64,000 nt of DNA. Source: Lentisphaerota bacterium. GTDB lineage: Bacteria > Verrucomicrobiota > Kiritimatiellia > PWTM01. Shown in pieces: positions 10,341 through 54,334 of the stretch. The notes beneath the pieces were generated by a model. It ran no database searches. It saw only the letters and a program-made list of their open reading frames with translations, and was not told the DNA's origin. Location of the stretch: NCBI GenBank assembly GCA_016873715.1, contig VGWF01000003.1, positions 1-64,000 of the forward strand, in the 5' to 3' direction. How positions within the stretch are numbered: the first letter of the stretch is position 1; each line of letters begins with the position of its first letter. The translations under genes and the position numbers were made by a program.

Positions 10341-11315
10341 ATGAGGGGAGCCCGAAACGTCCTTCCGCTCCTGCTGGCTGTCGGCCTCGGGGCCGTGCCG
10401 GCCGCGGTCCGCGCCGCGCTCCTCGCCTACGAACCGTTCCTCGCCGGCGGGGCGTCGCCCAACCTCGCCGCCGGACAGTACACCAACGGCGTCGCCTATC
10501 CGGGTGACCAGCTCCTCGGCCAGGGTCCCGCCGCCCTCGGGTTCGGCGCCGGATCGGCGTGGACCAACAACTCCGGCAGCGGCTACAACGCCAACGTCTA
10601 CTACCGCACCGAGGCCGACCAGGGCGGCTACACCGACGGCAACGGCCGCCAGCTCGTCACCGCCGCCGGCCAGCTCAATCTCCAGCGCAGCTCCGGCGCC
10701 CCATCCGACAGCGACAAGAACGCCGTGCGCACCCTCGCGCTCGGGGGGAACCTCCCGGGCGTCATCTACATGAGCTTCATGGCCAGCATGACCGTCGGCG
10801 ACCATGTCCGCCTCTCGTCCGGCGCGACGGACGGCTCCAGCGCGCAGCGGTTCTTCTTCGGCGCCAGCACCACGCGCAACCCCTTTGTGAGCGGCTGGAA
10901 CGGCTCCGCCTACAGCAACGTCGTCAACACCGGCATCGCCATCTCGACGAACACGATGCACCTGTTCGTCGCCCGCATCCGCGACAACGGCGACGCCGTC
11001 CACGACGAGATCGCCCTCTTCTTCGATCCTCTTCTCGCCTCGGAGGGCCTCAACACCCCGACCGCGGAGCTTACCCTCGGCAACTTCTACGTCGCCGGCA
11101 ACGCCGGATGGACTCTCGTGGACACCTATATCCGCGGTCGTGCCGTCGACGCCCCGTCCTCGGTCCGCATCGACGAAATCCGCATCGGCACCACGTGGGC
11201 GGACGTCACACCGAACATCATCCCCGAGCCGTCGACCGCCGCCACGCTCCTTGCCGGTGTCCTGCTCCTCGCTCGCCGACTTCGCGGCGGCCGCCCGGAC
11301 AGCCGCCTGCCGTGA
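10341..11315 (+). CDS. PEP-CTERM-anchored exported protein
   Basis: Signal peptide; C-terminal PEPSTAATLLAGVLLLARRLRGGR. Confidence 0.85.
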   Translation: MRGARNVLPLLLAVGLGAVPAAVRAALLAYEPFLAGGASPNLAAGQYTNGVAYPGDQLLGQGPAALGFGAGSAWTNNSGSGYNANVYYRTEADQGGYTDGNGRQLVTAAGQLNLQRSSGAPSDSDKNAVRTLALGGNLPGVIYMSFMASMTVGDHVRLSSGATDGSSAQRFFFGASTTRNPFVSGWNGSAYSNVVNTGIAISTNTMHLFVARIRDNGDAVHDEIALFFDPLLASEGLNTPTAELTLGNFYVAGNAGWTLVDTYIRGRAVDAPSSVRIDEIRIGTTWADVTPNIIPEPSTAATLLAGVLLLARRLRGGRPDSRLP

Positions 11316-12016
11316 GCGTTCCGGCCTCCACGCCCCTCGGCGGCCCCGAGTCGATCTCCATCCGGGTCTCGATCGGGGACGACCTCCGCGCGCTCTGCCC
11401 CCGCATCGCCGTCGGGCTCGTCGAGGCGCTCGTTCGCAACGACCGCCCCGCCCCCGATCTCCAGGCCGACATCGACGCCGCCCTCGCCGGCTTCGCGGAT
11501 CATCCGCTCGAACGCATCAAGGAGCACCCGGCCATCGCCGCCACGCGCGCCCTCTACCGCGCCTGCGGCAAGGAGCCGAACCGCTACCGGCCCGCGGCCG
11601 AGCAACTCCGCCGCCGCGCCGCCCAGGGCAAGGGCCTCTACCGGATCAGTCCCCTCGTCGATCTCGTGAACCTCGTCTCGCTCCGCACGGGGCTCTCCAT
11701 CGGCGCGTTCGACCTCGACGCGGTCGACGGCGACGCCGAGTGGGGCGTCGGCCGCGCGGACGAACCCTACGAGGCCATCGGCCGCGGCCCCTTCAACATC
11801 GGGGGCATGCCCGTTCTCCGCGACCGACGCGGCGCCTTCGGATCCCCGAGCAGCGACTCCGAGCGCACCAAGCTCCGCCCCGCGACCGTCCGGTTCCTGC
11901 TCAACATCAACAGCTACGCCGGCCCCGATCCCGCCGTCGCCGCCATCGAACTCGCCTCCGGCCTCCTCCGCCGCCACGCCGACGCCACCGGGATCCGCAG
12001 CGCAGTCGTGCGCTGA
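11312..12016 (+). CDS. B3/B4 (PheT-like tRNA-binding) domain protein
   Basis: ALYRACGKEPNRYRPAAEQLRRRAAQGKGLYRISPLVDLVNLVSLRTGLSIGAFDLD; GTG start overlapping the previous stop (GTGA). Confidence 0.75.
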   Translation: MSVPASTPLGGPESISIRVSIGDDLRALCPRIAVGLVEALVRNDRPAPDLQADIDAALAGFADHPLERIKEHPAIAATRALYRACGKEPNRYRPAAEQLRRRAAQGKGLYRISPLVDLVNLVSLRTGLSIGAFDLDAVDGDAEWGVGRADEPYEAIGRGPFNIGGMPVLRDRRGAFGSPSSDSERTKLRPATVRFLLNINSYAGPDPAVAAIELASGLLRRHADATGIRSAVVR

Positions 12017-12030
12017 GCCGGGGAACGGAA

Positions 12031-12150
12031 GCGGAGAGCACAGAGCGAAGAGCACAGAGCGGAGAGCAGAGAGCGGAGAGCAGAGAGCGGAGAGCCCCGA
12101 GCGGAGAGCACAGAGCGGAGAGCGTAGGGCGGAGAGCGCAGAGCGGAGAG
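12031..12150. repeat. Tandem array, 14-bp period (2x7), consensus GCGGAGAGCacaga, about 8.6 copies
   Basis: Parses without indels as heptads GCGGAGA/GCACAGA/GCGAAGA/GCAGAGA... Confidence 0.9.
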
Positions 12151-12175
12151 TCGGGAGTGGGAACCAAAGGCCGCC

Positions 12176-12295
12176 GTTGGTTGTTGGCTGTTGGATGTTC
12201 GATGGTGGTAGTTCGTTGTTGAATGTTGGTTGTTCGGTGTTCGATGTTGGATGTTCGATGTTGGATGTTGGACGTTGGTTGTTGGTTGTTGGCTG
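12176..12295. repeat. Tandem array, 7-bp period, consensus GTTGGWT, about 17 copies
   Basis: GTTGGTT GTTGGCT GTTGGAT GTTCGAT ... GTTGGTT GTTGGCT without indels. Confidence 0.92.
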
Positions 12296-12386
12296 CCGAG
12301 TCCGGCTGTCCCGCCCCGGTTCGCTTGCGCTATACTGTGCGCCTGACCGCGTCGGTTGACACCGGGGACCGGATCGGAGACTCCGT

Positions 12387-13610
12387 GTGAGCGCACGTCC
12401 AGACAGCATCGACGATCTTCGCATCGACCGGACCGGCGAGGACGCCCCCCGTCCCCGCATCGGTACGGTCGTGGCCGTGATCGTCGTCCTCGCCCTCCTG
12501 GCGGCCGCCGCCTTCGGCCTCTCCGCCGGCCGCGGCCCCGAGGTGCGCACCGTCGCCGCCCGCGAGGCCGCGGCGGAATCCGGCGGCCCCCGCACCGTCC
12601 TCAACGCCTCGGGCTACGTCGTCGCGCGCCGCCAGGCCACGGTCTCGTCGAAGATCACCGGCAAGGTCATCGAGGTCCTCGTCGAGGAGGGCATGAAGGT
12701 CGCCGACGGCCAGGTCCTCGCCCGCCTCGATGACGCCAACGTGCGGACCGGGCTCAACCTTGCGGAATCGGAGCACACCGCCGCACGCGCGGCGCTGGCC
12801 GAAACCCGCGTCCGCCTCGACGAGGCCCGCGTGGAGTTCGGCCGTATCCAGCGGCTCGCCGCGGCGGACCTGACCACCACCTCGGAGCTCGACCGCGCCC
12901 GCGCCTCGGTCCAGTCGCTCGAGGCGCGCATCGAACAGCAGGACGCGCAGGCGCAGGTCGCCGGCCGGCAGGTCGACGTCTGGAAGCAGCAGGTGGAGGA
13001 CGCCGTCATCCGCGCGCCCTTCTCCGGCATCGCCACCTCCAAGAACGCCCAGCCGGGCGAGATGATCTCCCCCGTCTCCGCCGGCGGCGGCTTCACGCGC
13101 ACGGGCATCGGAACCATCGTCGACATGGATTCCCTCGAGATCGAGGTCGACGTCAACGAGAGCTACCTTCACCGGGTCCGTCCCGGCCAGCCGGTCGAGG
13201 CCTCGCTCGATGCCTATCCGGACTGGAGGATCCCCTGCAAGGTCTTCGCGATCATCCCCACGGCCGACCGGCAGAAGTCGACCGTCAAGGTCCGCGTGAA
13301 GTTCGACCGCCTCGACCCGCGCATCCTGCCCGACATGGGCGTGAAGGTCGCGTTCCAGGGCGCCCCCGGCGATGGAACTCCCGCCGTGGCCACGGTCCTC
13401 GTGCCCGAGGCCGCCATCCGGCACGTCGACGGCCGGGCCACCGCATGGGTCGTCGGGAACGGCCACCTCCAGCTCCGCGCCCTCACCGTGGAGACCGCCC
13501 GCGCGGGCCAGGTTTCCGTCACGTCCGGCCTGAAGGCGGGCGAGCGGGTCGTCGTCGACGGCCCCGCCTCCCTCCGGGAGGGCGGCCGCGTGCGCGAGGC
13601 GGCACGATGA
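12387..13610 (+). CDS. Efflux periplasmic adaptor (MFP/HlyD/MacA-type)
   Basis: [38 protein letters not shown]; coiled coil; [23 protein letters not shown]. Confidence 0.9.
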
Positions 13611-13644
13611 GCGCCCTGCGGGCGGCGCGGGGCGGGCCGGTCGC

Positions 13645-14358
13645 ATGAACGGCGCGGCGCCGGCCCCGGCGGACGATCTCCTCGTCCGGGTTGAGGACGT
13701 CGAGAAGGCGTTCCATCGCGGCGAGGAGGTGATCCACGTCCTGCGCGACCTCCACCTGACCATCCCGCGCGGCGAGTTCCTTGCGCTGATGGGTCCCTCC
13801 GGCTCCGGCAAGAGCACGCTGCTCAACCTCCTGGGCGGCCTCGACCGGCCCACGCGCGGACGCGTGATCGTCGACGGCCGGCGGATCGACCGTCTCTCCG
13901 ACCGCCAGCTCGCGGCGTGGCGCGCGCGCCACGTCGGACTCGTCTTCCAGTTCTACAACCTGCTCCCCGTCCTGACCGCCGAACGCAACGTCGAACTCCC
14001 GCTGCTGCTCGCGCCGCTCACCCGCGTCCAGCGCCGCCGCCACGTCGCGGCCGCGCTGGGCATCGTCGGCCTGTCCCACCGCGCGCGCCACTACCCGCGG
14101 CAGCTCTCCGGCGGCGAGCAGCAGCGCGTGGGCATCGCCCGCGCGCTGGTGACCGACCCGAGCCTGCTGCTGTGCGACGAACCCACCGGCGACCTCGACC
14201 GCCGGTCCGGCGACGGGATCCTCGACCTCCTCCAGGCCCTCAACCGCGAACACGGCAAGACCATCGTGATGGTCACGCACGATCCCCACGCCTCCGCGCG
14301 CGCCACGCGCGTGGTGCACCTCGACAAGGGCCGCCTCGGCACGGAGGCGCCCCCGTGA
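13645..14358 (+). CDS. ABC transporter ATP-binding protein (MacB/LolD-type)
   Basis: Walker [10 protein letters not shown]; signature [15 protein letters not shown]; Walker [13 protein letters not shown]. Confidence 0.95.
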
Positions 14359-14383
14359 ACGCCGCCCGCATCCGCCCCGGCCC

Positions 14384-15538
14384 ATGAAGTACCTCCCCCT
14401 CGTCTGGGCCGGCCTCCGGCGCCGGAAGCTGCGGTCGCTGCTGACGCTGCTCTGCATCCTCGTCGCGTTCGTCCTCTTCGGCTACCTCTGCGCCATCGGC
14501 CGCGCGATGGACCAGGGCGCCAGCGTCGCCGGGGCCGACCGTCTGATGGTCCGCCACCGCGTCTCGATCACGCAACCGCTCCCCGTCAGCTACAAGGCGC
14601 GCATCGAGCGCATCCCCGGCGTCGCGCTTGTCGCGCATTTCTCCTGGTTCGGAGGCATCTACCGCGAACCCGGCAACTTCTTCCCCCAGATGGCCGTCGA
14701 ACCCGGCCCCCACCTCGCCATGTACCCGGAGTACCTGCTGCCGGAGGACCGCAGGCAGGCGTGGCTCGCCACCCGCACCGGCGCGATCGCCGGCCGCAGG
14801 ACCGCGGAGAAGTACGGGTGGAAGGTCGGCGACCGGATCCCGATCCAGGCCACCGTCTGGCGCCGGATGAACGGCGACACCACCTGGGAGTTCGACCTCG
14901 TCGGCATCTTCGACGGCGCGAAGCCGGAGACCGACACCACCGGGTTCTTTTTCCGCTACGACTGCCTCGACGAGGGGCGGCTCTTCGGCAAGGGGATCGT
15001 CGCCTGGTACACCGTCCGCGTCTCGAACCCGGAGGAGGCCGCCGACGTCGCGCGGCGGATCGACGAGGAGTTCGCCAACGCCTCCGCCGAGACCAAGTCC
15101 GAGACCGAGGGCGCGTTCCTCCGCGGCTGGGCCCGGCAGATCGGCGACATCTCCACGATCCTCGCCTCCGTCCTCGGCGCCGTCTTCTTCACCATCCTCC
15201 TCGTCGCCGGCAACACGATGGCGCAATCGGTCCGGGAGCGAACCTGCGAGATCGGCGTCCTCAAGGCCCTCGGGTACACCCATGCCGGCGTGCTCTCGCT
15301 GGTCCTCGCGGAGTCGTGCCTTCTCTCCGTCCTCGGGGCCGCGGGCGGACTGGCCGTTGCCTCGGTCCTCGTCGCCGCCGGCGATCCGACCCGCGGCGCG
15401 ATGCCGATGTTCCACTTCCCGGCCGCGGACGTGCTCGCCGGCCTCGGGTGGGCGCTGGCGCTGGGCGTCGTCGCCGGGCTCCTGCCGGCGCTCCACGCGA
15501 TGCGGCTCCGCGTGGCCGACGCGCTGCGGAGGACCTAG
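14384..15538 (+). CDS. ABC transporter permease (FtsX/MacB-type)
   Basis: RSLLTLLCILVAFVLFGYLCAIG; C-terminal FtsX-like VRERTCEIGVLKALGYTHAGVLSLVLAES. Confidence 0.9.
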   Translation: MKYLPLVWAGLRRRKLRSLLTLLCILVAFVLFGYLCAIGRAMDQGASVAGADRLMVRHRVSITQPLPVSYKARIERIPGVALVAHFSWFGGIYREPGNFFPQMAVEPGPHLAMYPEYLLPEDRRQAWLATRTGAIAGRRTAEKYGWKVGDRIPIQATVWRRMNGDTTWEFDLVGIFDGAKPETDTTGFFFRYDCLDEGRLFGKGIVAWYTVRVSNPEEAADVARRIDEEFANASAETKSETEGAFLRGWARQIGDISTILASVLGAVFFTILLVAGNTMAQSVRERTCEIGVLKALGYTHAGVLSLVLAESCLLSVLGAAGGLAVASVLVAAGDPTRGAMPMFHFPAADVLAGLGWALALGVVAGLLPALHAMRLRVADALRRT

Positions 15539-15561
15539 CGGGCGCGGGGCGCCCCACGGAC

Positions 15562-15612
15562 GACGGAAGACGGAAGACGGAAGACGGAAGAACGGGAGAA
15601 CGGAAGAACAGT
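15562..15612. repeat. Tandem array, 7-bp period, consensus GACGGAA
   Basis: GACGGAA x4 then degenerate GAACGGGA GAACGGA AGAACAG; sits between two permease genes. Confidence 0.85.
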
Positions 15613-15613
15613 G

Positions 15614-16810
15614 ATGGGATTCGTCAGCTGGCTCTCGCAGGTCGGCTCGGTCACGAAGCTGAGCCTCGAGACGATCGTCGAGCGCAAGGGCGCCTCGGCC
15701 GCCGCCGTCTTCGGCATCGCGGGGGTCGTCGCCGTCTTCGTCGCGGTCCTGTCCGTCGCGGAGGGCTTCCGCCGCGTGATGACCGCCTCCGGCGACCCGT
15801 CGGCGGCCATCGTGATGCGCGCCGGATCGGACACCGAGATGATGAGCATCCTCTACGGCACGGGGGTCCGCGTCATCGACGACGCGCCCGGCATCGCGCG
15901 CTCCGCCTCCGGTCCCCTCGCTTGCCGCGAGCTGTTCGTCGTCATCAACCTGCCCCGGCGCTCCAGCGGCATGGATGCCAACGTCCCGCTGCGCGGTCTC
16001 GGCGCCAATGCCTTCGAGGTCCACGACCGGGTCCGCATCGTCGAGGGCCGGCGGTTCACGCCCGGCTGCAACGAGGTGATCGTCGGCGTGGGCGCCTCGC
16101 ACGAGTTCGCCGGCCTCGACCTCGGCGCCGAACTGAAGGTGGGGCGCAACCGGTGGAGGGTCGTCGGGATCTTCACCGCCGGCGGCGGGCTGCCGGAGTC
16201 CGAGATCTGGACCGACGCCGTCGTGCTGCAGGCGGCCTACCACCGCGGCAACAGCTTCCAGACCGTCCGCGTCAAGCTCGCATCGCCCGACTCGTTCGAC
16301 GCGTTCCGCGACGCCCTTCTCGCCGACCCGCGCCTGACCGTGAAGGCGATCCGCCTGCAGGACTACTACGCCGAGCAGTCGCGCACCGTCCAGAACCTGA
16401 TCACCGGCCTTGGCACCCTCGTCGCGGCGCTGATGGGCATCGGCGCCTCGTTCGGCGCGCTGAACACGATGTACTCCGCCGTCGCCACCCGCACGCGGGA
16501 GATCGCCACCCTACGCGCCCTCGGTTTCGGAAGCGCCCCGATCGTGATCTCCATCCTCGCCGAGTCGCTCGTGCTCGCGTCGCTCGGCGGGCTTGCCGGC
16601 GCCGCGGTGGCCTACGGGATCTTCGACGGCTTCCGCGCCGCCACCCTCAACTGGCAGAGCTTCAGCCAGGTCGCCTTCGCCTTCGACGTCACCCCCGCCC
16701 TCCTCGCACAGGGCGGCGGCTGCGCGATCCTCATCGGCGTCATCGGGGGCCTCTTCCCCGCCCTCCGCGCCGCCCGCATCCCGGTCGCCACCGCCCTGCG
16801 CGAGACCTGA
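15614..16810 (+). CDS. Second ABC transporter permease (FtsX/MacB-type)
   Basis: TRTREIATLRALGFGSAPIVISILAESLVLASLGGLAGA; 4-TM topology. Confidence 0.9.
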   Translation: MGFVSWLSQVGSVTKLSLETIVERKGASAAAVFGIAGVVAVFVAVLSVAEGFRRVMTASGDPSAAIVMRAGSDTEMMSILYGTGVRVIDDAPGIARSASGPLACRELFVVINLPRRSSGMDANVPLRGLGANAFEVHDRVRIVEGRRFTPGCNEVIVGVGASHEFAGLDLGAELKVGRNRWRVVGIFTAGGGLPESEIWTDAVVLQAAYHRGNSFQTVRVKLASPDSFDAFRDALLADPRLTVKAIRLQDYYAEQSRTVQNLITGLGTLVAALMGIGASFGALNTMYSAVATRTREIATLRALGFGSAPIVISILAESLVLASLGGLAGAAVAYGIFDGFRAATLNWQSFSQVAFAFDVTPALLAQGGGCAILIGVIGGLFPALRAARIPVATALRET

Positions 16811-16938
16811 CGGACCGGGCCGCCGCCGAAGCCCCGGATCGGACGCCGGATGGGGCTGCCGGATAAGGCTTGCCTTCGGCCCGCGAGGTGATGAGGATGT
16901 CGGGAAACGCGGACGGCCACCGTCCGAAAGGAGCCGGC

Positions 16939-17937
16939 ATGACAACCCGACGCTCGAGCGTAACCGCCCTGACCCTTGCCACCCTGCTTGCCGCACCGCA
17001 CGCGGCCCCGGCCATCGGCGCGTGGGACGGGCCGGAGACCGGCTCGCTCCGGATCTGGAACGCGCAGGCCGGCCTGTCCCTCCGGGGCTCGGTCGGCTAT
17101 CTCAACGGCGAGGCGCGGGAACTCGTCTACTCGGACCTCGACGGCTACCGGCACCAGGTCAGCGAATTGATCTGGGACCTCCGCGACCTGGCCATGGTCG
17201 GGATCTCCGGTTCCGCGCACTTCGCCAAGCGGTTCCACGTCCGGGCCGCGTTCTGGACGCCCGCGAACGAGGGCGGCGGCCAGATGGAGGACTACGACTG
17301 GCTGGTCTACGAGCCCGGCGCGCCGTGGACGGACTACTCGCTGAGCGACGTCGACGTCACCAGCGCGTCGATCGTGGACCTGGCCTTCGCCGTGGACATC
17401 GTCTCCTACAAGGGCTTCACCCTTCGCGGGATGGCCGGCTACAAACAGGACTACTGGGCGTGGCGCGACTATGGCCTCCTCCACGTCTACTCCTCCAACC
17501 CCTACAGCCCGGGCGGCTTCCGCGACGACGTGGCGAACGAGGACGGAGCCACCGGCATCGAGTACGAGCAGGTCTTCCGCGTCCCCTACTTCGGCGGCGA
17601 GCTGGAGTTCGCCCGCGGGGCCTGGGAGGCGAACACCTACCTCAAGTTCAGCCCGATCGTCACGGCCAACGACGAGGACCTGCATATCCACCGCAACCTG
17701 CTGTTCGAGGAGTCGTTCGACGGCGGGACCTTCGTCGCCGCGGGCGTGCAGGTCCTGCGCACCTTCGAGTCCGGTCTCTACGTTGCCGGCGCGTTCGACT
17801 TCCAGACCATCCCCGAGTTCGACGGCGACATGACGATCACCGACTACGACACCGGGGAAGTCTCGTCGGAATCCGACAACGCCGGGATCAGCCACTTCGC
17901 GTACATGCTGTCCCTGTCCCTTGGCTACGCCTTCTGA
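16939..17937 (+). CDS. Omptin-family outer-membrane protease-like beta-barrel
   Basis: Resembles OmpT throughout: GEARELVYSDLDGYRHQVSELIW, GGQMEDYDWLVYEPGAPWTDYS, LRGMAGYKQDYW, YSSNPYSPGGFRDDV, GIEYEQVFRVPYFG, NDEDLHIH; terminal LGYAF. Confidence 0.75.
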   Translation: MTTRRSSVTALTLATLLAAPHAAPAIGAWDGPETGSLRIWNAQAGLSLRGSVGYLNGEARELVYSDLDGYRHQVSELIWDLRDLAMVGISGSAHFAKRFHVRAAFWTPANEGGGQMEDYDWLVYEPGAPWTDYSLSDVDVTSASIVDLAFAVDIVSYKGFTLRGMAGYKQDYWAWRDYGLLHVYSSNPYSPGGFRDDVANEDGATGIEYEQVFRVPYFGGELEFARGAWEANTYLKFSPIVTANDEDLHIHRNLLFEESFDGGTFVAAGVQVLRTFESGLYVAGAFDFQTIPEFDGDMTITDYDTGEVSSESDNAGISHFAYMLSLSLGYAF

Positions 17938-53491: not shown

Positions 53492-54334
53492 TCACTTCTT
53501 CTCGGACTTCTCCTTCCCGGCCTTGGGCGCGGCTTCCTTCGCGGGAGCGGCACCCTTCGCGGCGGGAGCGGCACCCTTCGCGGCGGGAGCGGCACCCTTC
53601 GCGGCGGGAGCGGCCCCCTTCGCGGCAGCGGCGCCCTTCGCGGGAGCGCCCTTCGCGGCGCCTTCCTTGCCGCCCTCGGCTTCCTCGCCCTCCTCCGGCT
53701 TCTTCGCCGTGATGACCTCGGGCTCGGCGGCGGCCTCGCCCTCGGCGGGCGCGGCGACCTCTTCCTCGGCCTTCGGCATCGACACGGCCGCGATGGCGAC
53801 ATCGGCGCCGGTCACGATCGCGTACTTGGCGGGGTCGAGCTTGATGTCCTTCACCGAAAGGTGCTTTCCGACCGCCAGCCCCGCGACGTCGATCGGGATC
53901 TCCTCGAGGATGTCCGCCGGCAGAGACTCGACCTCGATCGTGCGGAGCAGGTGGTCCAGGATGCCGCCCTCCTGCGTCACGCCGACCGGTTCGCCCACCA
54001 GCCTCAGCGGCACGGAGACGCGCAGCTTGCGGGTCATCGACACCTCGTAGAAGTCGATGTGCGTCACGCGCCCGTCGATCGGGTGGTGCTGCATCGCCTT
54101 GAGCAGGACCTTGCGGGGCTTGCCGCCCGCGACGTCGAGGTCGACGAGCATCTGCTCGCTGTGGTGGCGCTTCATCATCTGGGCGAAATCATGCGCGACG
54201 ATCTGCACGTTCTCGCCGGCCCTGCCCTCGCTGTACACGACGGCGGGGATCCGGCCCTCGCGGCGCAGGCGCCCCATGGCCGAACTCCCGACCCGGTCCC
54301 GGGGCTCCGCCTTGACGGTGATGGTTTCCTTCAT
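53492..54334 (-). CDS. rplY: 50S ribosomal protein bL25/CTC family with low-complexity tail
   Basis: RDRVGSSAMGRLRREGRIPAVVYSEG; IDGRVTHIDFYEV; between prs and pth. Confidence 0.93.
   Translation of the reverse strand: MKETITVKAEPRDRVGSSAMGRLRREGRIPAVVYSEGRAGENVQIVAHDFAQMMKRHHSEQMLVDLDVAGGKPRKVLLKAMQHHPIDGRVTHIDFYEVSMTRKLRVSVPLRLVGEPVGVTQEGGILDHLLRTIEVESLPADILEEIPIDVAGLAVGKHLSVKDIKLDPAKYAIVTGADVAIAAVSMPKAEEEVAAPAEGEAAAEPEVITAKKPEEGEEAEGGKEGAAKGAPAKGAAAAKGAAPAAKGAAPAAKGAAPAAKGAAPAKEAAPKAGKEKSEKK
53541..53624. repeat. 21-bp tandem repeat in the 3' end of rplY, encoding (AAKGAAP)n
   Basis: GCGGGAGCGGCACCCTTCGCG x3 perfect plus near-perfect fourth copy. Confidence 0.92.

Follow-up and report, generated by a model that had tools for sequence, protein, structure and literature searches.

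Degenerate heptanucleotide arrays dispersed between the genes of a Lentisphaerota bacterium

Heptanucleotides are reported to be the commonest unit in most prokaryote genomes that are rich in repeats (PMC4679880, PMC4692102, citing Mrazek 2007), and the same papers tentatively tie the preference for seven nucleotides to how long a stretch of DNA the polymerase holds. They also report, again after Mrazek 2007, that large, high-GC genomes of non-pathogens are rich in repeats with long units (PMC4692102, PMC4679880). The GGGAATC and GGGGAYT repeats of Xanthomonas and Nostoc are built of degenerate heptads in which some positions are fixed and others free; in Xanthomonas they occupy about 180 loci per genome, are 89-93% intergenic, form many inverted pairs and lie nearer the preceding ORF (28 nt) than the next (160 nt) (PMC4692102). 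The TAACTGA direct repeats of Beggiatoaceae, Cyanobacteria and Bacteroidetes are intergenic heptamers with a patchy distribution over distant taxa and no known binder (PMC4679880), and the STRR of heterocystous cyanobacteria are tandem heptanucleotides with several sequences per genome, three of them in Calothrix (PMC4692102).

In a 64,000-nucleotide stretch of a Lentisphaerota genome (assembly GCA_016873715.1, contig VGWF01000003.1, positions 1 to 64,000; hereafter the window) the spacer between a B3/4-domain protein gene (end 12016) and a HlyD-family gene (start 12387) holds 17 in-register degenerate heptads GTTSGNY at 12176-12294, here called array B. This array belongs to the known kind of intergenic heptanucleotide repeats represented in Xanthomonas, Nostoc and Beggiatoaceae, in that the genome combines an excess of the 7-bp period, a mostly non-genic location and many patchily distributed loci. 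The arrays of this genome share with the Xanthomonas and Nostoc repeats the degenerate units, the location between genes, the proximity to the preceding ORF and the inverted pairs, but their sequence is different, those repeats are prone to form G-quadruplexes, and in Xanthomonas both strands are used about equally with respect to the genes (PMC4692102), whereas here the strand beside stop codons is strongly biased. Judged from the consensus, GTTSGNY contains runs of two G at most and thus falls short of the G-tract heptad of the GGGNATC repeats. The TAACTGA repeats, unlike those described here, have one fixed sequence, lie mostly just upstream of start codons with a suggested translational role, and have related heptamers that are rare as direct repeats in the genome in question (PMC4679880). 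Finally, the class of Mrazek 2007 is defined, as PMC4679880 and PMC4692102 describe it, by a statistical excess of long repeats, whereas the present arrays are strongly degenerate with a consensus common to loci. The features of the region are:

11312..12016, plus strand: upstream gene for a B3/4-domain protein, ending in a TGA stop that lies 12 bp ahead of the point where array A is first detected
12026..12151, plus strand: array A, 18 heptads NRAGAGC, a separate sequence family whose period is also 7
12170..12175, plus strand: GCCGCC, directly 5' of array B, read by eye
12176..12294, plus strand: array B, its GT-rich strand being the coding strand of both adjoining genes
12298..12306, plus strand: GAGTCCGGC, shortly 3' of array B
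12331..12336, plus strand: TATACT, a candidate -10 element of the operon downstream, read from the sequence
12387..13610, plus strand: gene for a HlyD-family membrane-fusion protein, first of an efflux operon, from GTG 12387 (codon-model start 12471)
15556..15607, plus strand: third period-7 array (ACGGAAG), between two FtsX-like permease genes

The initial annotation of array B counted 17 heptamers, all of which are real, and set its end one position too far, at 12295 instead of 12294. Across these units G1 and T3 are invariant (17 of 17 each), T2 and G5 occur in 16 (the exception at position 2 being a G), T7 in 15, and position 4 is G in 12 and C in 5, with position 6 taken by A in eight units, T in six, C in two and G in one. 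TRF independently reported period 7 over 12176-12292 (16.7 copies, 78% matches, consensus GTTGGAT), and the lag-7 identity of 0.777 compares with 0.368±0.044, at most 0.527, in 5000 dinucleotide shuffles. Array A, which fills the first half of the spacer, is likewise built on a 7-bp register, as had been noted from the start, and has a period of 14 that is stronger than its period of 7. A CRISPR array or a REP palindrome was rejected as an identity for array B, as its units abut without spacers and the unit is not palindromic; an Rfam search of window 11000-17000 returned no matches. Elsewhere in the window are a 21-bp tandem repeat, GCGGGAGCGGCACCCTTCGCG (53541-53643, 5 copies, 94% match), and, directly after the HlyD-ABC-FtsX operon, a gene for an omptin-family outer-membrane protein (16870-17937, Pfam PF01278, E 1e-48).

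About 40% of the genome, whose assembly comprises 289 contigs, was read for array scans that use no motif, and this portion contains at least 88 period-7 tandem arrays of several sequences, mostly intergenic. Measuring self-similarity at each lag over 1.65 Mb, we recovered 73 arrays at period 7 in addition to those at its multiples 14, 21, 28 and 35, as against 0-10 at each period that is not a multiple of seven (0-8 each for periods 4-6 and 8-13) and none at period 7 in a third-order Markov control of equal length. A hold-out of 0.4 Mb yielded 15 arrays at period 7 and 0-2 at neighbouring periods (one each at periods 6 and 8). The sampled genome is hence dominated by arrays of period 7 or a multiple of it, and neither a randomly varying period nor a lost register, the outcomes that the initial annotation had named as telling against it, was observed. 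The coding fraction is below 20% in 63 of the 73 arrays (86% intergenic) and in 14 of 15 in the hold-out, in a sample called 89% coding by our own uncurated codon model seeded from clear genes; a codon model trained on the longest ORFs picked antisense frames and was discarded. When the arrays were masked the intergenic lag-7 signal fell to the level of lags 5-9, which indicates that the periodicity is confined to discrete arrays. Some contigs begin in long heptad arrays (L088 1-125, L231 3-173 and L090 1-135); the assembly may therefore break at such sites, and true array lengths are perhaps underestimated.

At least seven sequence families can be told apart by eye, namely GTTSGNY, NRAGAGC, GACGGAA, GAGGGRC, CGACACY, GCTGGGY and CGAAGCA; within the window, array A and the array at 15556 belong to two families other than that of array B. 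Three consecutive GTTSGNY units match 845 times in the 5.13-Mb genome (4 in the reversed control), and three NRAGAGC units, the type of array A, 125 times (2 in the control). The position statistics of the GTTSGNY family were drawn from 521 units of 56 B-type arrays that had been detected without the motif: positions 1-3 and 5 are fixed at 91-95%, positions 4 and 7 take S (G or C) and Y (T or C), and position 6 is unconstrained, with 1.45, 1.59, 1.70, 1.02, 1.50, 0.07 and 1.09 bits at positions 1 to 7. The near-fixation of the leading GTT and of G5 beside variable positions, first remarked in array B, is therefore a property of the family, and the register is kept across its genomic copies. 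The further remark that array B does not look like fresh slippage also holds for single-unit steps, as adjacent units are no more alike than in shuffled order, and if anything slightly less so (z -2.1). Units two apart (z 2.8) and three apart (z 2.4) are more alike; recent growth, where there was any, therefore probably took two- or three-unit steps. Position 6 is A or G in 146 of 154 GTTCG units and in 143 of 270 GTTGG units (z 3.9 when stratified by block).

The flanks of the blocks are less regular. CCGCC, like the GCCGCC before array B, stands ahead of GTTGG blocks at several other loci of the genome (seen by eye, uncounted), and a TCCG-containing joint is present 3' of 14 of 26 GTTGG blocks and in the 5' flank of 8 of 26, at a genome rate of about 10% per 12 positions. 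The exact joint TTGARTCCGNCCTTCG has only 2 copies genome-wide, both within one tandem cluster, so that any composite element is a loose one; as an exact element signature the joint was rejected by this genome-wide test. The genome also carries a REP-like palindromic element (GGAGGGGCGAGCTACYGCGAGCCCGAAC ... GGCCTCGCATAGCTCGGCCCTCC), the core of which has 68 copies as against 0 in the control. It forms tandem units of about 100-250 bp with heptad arrays inside (L105 17350-18540; L077 14000-15300; L080 8350-8720; L073 13500-14350), and in a longer satellite-like array its core recurs every 101 bp in six successive copies (G000 contig C84:7506-8030). RAYT-type transposases, possible movers, are represented by 3 weak Y1_Tnp matches (a family count only).

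Across the phylum the GTTSGNY pattern is patchily distributed, being present in 86 of 390 genomes, of which the source genome is the richest with its 845 matches and the next have about 110; the pattern by itself is not decisive in G025, G241 and G274, where the reversed control also gives raised counts. Two genomes from other families of the same class, one of them with 56% GC, show a period-7 excess (11 and 15 arrays, respectively, where periods 6 and 8 give 0 in the first and 0-1 in the second) at loci that were picked for carrying B arrays and hence test the period rather than its density, and their heptads are partly others, such as GTCAGAG and TTGGTTC. Four array-poor genomes gave no period-7 arrays in 63 kb. 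In G010 (L205-L209) short GTTGGAC/GTTCGAT arrays lie inside an apparent dispersed element that recurs at several loci with like flanks, ACTAAAGCTGTTCTCCCGTTGGTCGAAT ahead of the arrays and GTTCTCA behind them. In some relatives, inverted repeats have such arrays as their arms: arrays on opposite strands are often 12-130 bp apart there, and neighbouring opposite-strand arrays follow one common outward order in 11 of 12 pairs from six genomes, the source genome included.

The arrays are also oriented with respect to genes. Among GTTSG arrays outside tandem clusters, in the one sample in which the rule was both found and mostly measured, 17 of 21 AC-sense arrays lie within 40 bp past a stop codon (gap -5 to 37 bp) as compared with 2 of 17 GT-sense arrays (Fisher 4.7e-5), and 32 of 39 arrays have the GTTCG end on the side of the nearer gene border (p 7e-5). 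The orientation is absent from the hold-out alone (n=7 usable arrays); G050 agrees with it (13/17) and G013 disagrees (8/15). Relative to both of its neighbours array B is GT-sense, and it fits the rule if the downstream gene begins at GTG 12387 (gap 92 vs 159) but not if it begins at 12471. Past stop codons, T makes up 5-8% of the first 60 bp of the sense strand where an array is present and 12-15% where there is none. This orientation and the family-wide fixed and free positions are two features that go beyond a plain repeat.

Based on the anatomy of the arrays, we consider it most likely that they represent tolerated DNA that grows by slippage and disperses locally under purifying selection, and we favour, with some reserve, the view that array B is a single copy of a heptanucleotide repeat dispersed between genes and plays no gene-specific role at the efflux operon. 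The genome contains many intergenic arrays with a period of exactly 7 bp and several sequences. Such arrays would grow and shrink by multi-unit steps, via slippage or unequal recombination of 14-21 bp, with a 7-nt step perhaps favoured, as others have proposed, by the extent of DNA that the polymerase holds. The GTTSGNY family would additionally spread as pieces that keep the common degenerate consensus, which in some relatives take the form of an inverted repeat with two heptad arms; no enzyme or target duplication was identified for this proposed dispersal. Arrays would then survive only where they are harmless, just past stops and upstream of promoters, and selection against harm, perhaps joined by a mild benefit from unstructured post-stop RNA, would explain their orientation. 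The period-7 excess, the intergenic location, the confinement of the periodicity to discrete arrays, the likeness of units two and three apart, the period of 14 in array A and the patchiness all support this account. Slippage that is purely neutral does not predict the fixed and free positions shared by 56 arrays, the recurrence of GTTSG in other families or the strand bias at stop codons.

On another reading, GTTSGNY arrays would be oriented transcript-end elements: the RNA of their AC strand would offer Rho an evenly spaced loading (rut) site and shut off transcription that enters the spacer, be it past a stop or backwards from a promoter. A role at transcript ends is possible on the present sequence evidence, and this specific form of it we regard as unlikely. 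The bias of AC-sense arrays toward stops and of GTTCG ends toward gene borders speaks for it, as does the composition of the RNA: rut sites combine many YC and few G with a lack of structure (PMC12350095), the AC strand of array B, with 47 C to 8 G, folds little better than shuffles (-14.1 kcal/mol, z -1.1), and GTTCG units, which lack the CC supplied by GTTGG units, nearly always have A or G at position 6 and so provide a YC in the RNA. The genome moreover encodes Rho. However, the combination of C over G, few G, many YC and no structure that the AC strand of GTTSG arrays offers is not shared by the sense strands of the three window arrays (A, B and ACGGAAG); array A, ACGGAAG and other purine families past stops are purine-rich in sense, the opposite of rut, array B is GT-sense on both sides, and the rule is missing from the hold-out and from G013. 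In addition, Rho is lacking in Cyanobacteria, which do carry heptad repeats (PMC13289151). A broader version, in which these are class-wide oriented elements whose 7-nt pitch is selected in RNA, the strand read into the spacer being unstructured and having about one YC per heptad for phased loading of Rho or another hexameric RNA motor at gene ends, is in our estimate quite improbable; were it true, the 7-bp period would reflect the step of a protein and not only polymerase slippage. Folding bears on yet another reading, that the arrays are arms, or leftover single arms, of mobile or terminator-like stem-loops. It draws on the outward order of the opposite-strand pairs and on long stems at six loci in relatives (L140 z -7.4; L180 z -9.6; L183 z -6.3; L177 z -7.6; L210 z -7.4; L191 z -3.1), but L174 and L204, also in relatives, fold no better than shuffles, arrays of the source genome are mostly single, and the window has no complementary arm for array B, arrays A and B not being complementary to each other, which leaves it an unlikely account. 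In array B itself the GT-strand RNA does fold, through G-U pairs (z -5.1).

The position-specific conservation and the placement of array B upstream of an operon could alternatively point to binding sites of a protein that recognises 7-bp repeats and regulates the genes downstream. Yet many B-type arrays lie where genes end, there is no known candidate protein, and several unrelated sequence families share nothing but the period, which makes a single DNA-reading protein unlikely; we accordingly give this reading very little credence. The special link to the efflux operon drawn in the initial annotation finds no backing either: B-type arrays adjoin many different gene borders, often directly past stop codons, and a sigma-70 consensus promoter search of 11950-12480 found no full consensus; control of the operon by array B is without support. 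In a synteny comparison at the locus, relatives of the B3/4 protein in 10 genomes had no HlyD gene beside them in the flanks examined, and the best HlyD relative was 36% identical. That the array encodes a heptapeptide repeat is suggested by both strands being largely stop-free, with minus-strand ORFs of 492, 160 and 86 aa crossing array A and the first two also array B. This is the least credible of the readings and hardly to be entertained, as codon-usage calls place no gene at the arrays, most arrays are intergenic, and the longest minus-strand ORF overlaps plus-strand genes with Pfam matches.

The arrays resemble the cyanobacterial heptanucleotide repeats in kind, as the initial annotation had proposed, being tandem heptads of several sequences within one genome, and the STRR sequences probably differ from the heptads of the source genome. 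What is new here is the simultaneous presence of several sequence families, their abundance, one consensus common to members of a whole class and the strand bias at stops. These observations bear on the question of why bacteria accumulate 7-bp repeats rather than repeats of other lengths: the arrays have their period in common and not their sequence, which favours a mechanism or a constraint that acts on step length. The orientation of the arrays, in turn, yields a directly testable prediction on transcript ends.
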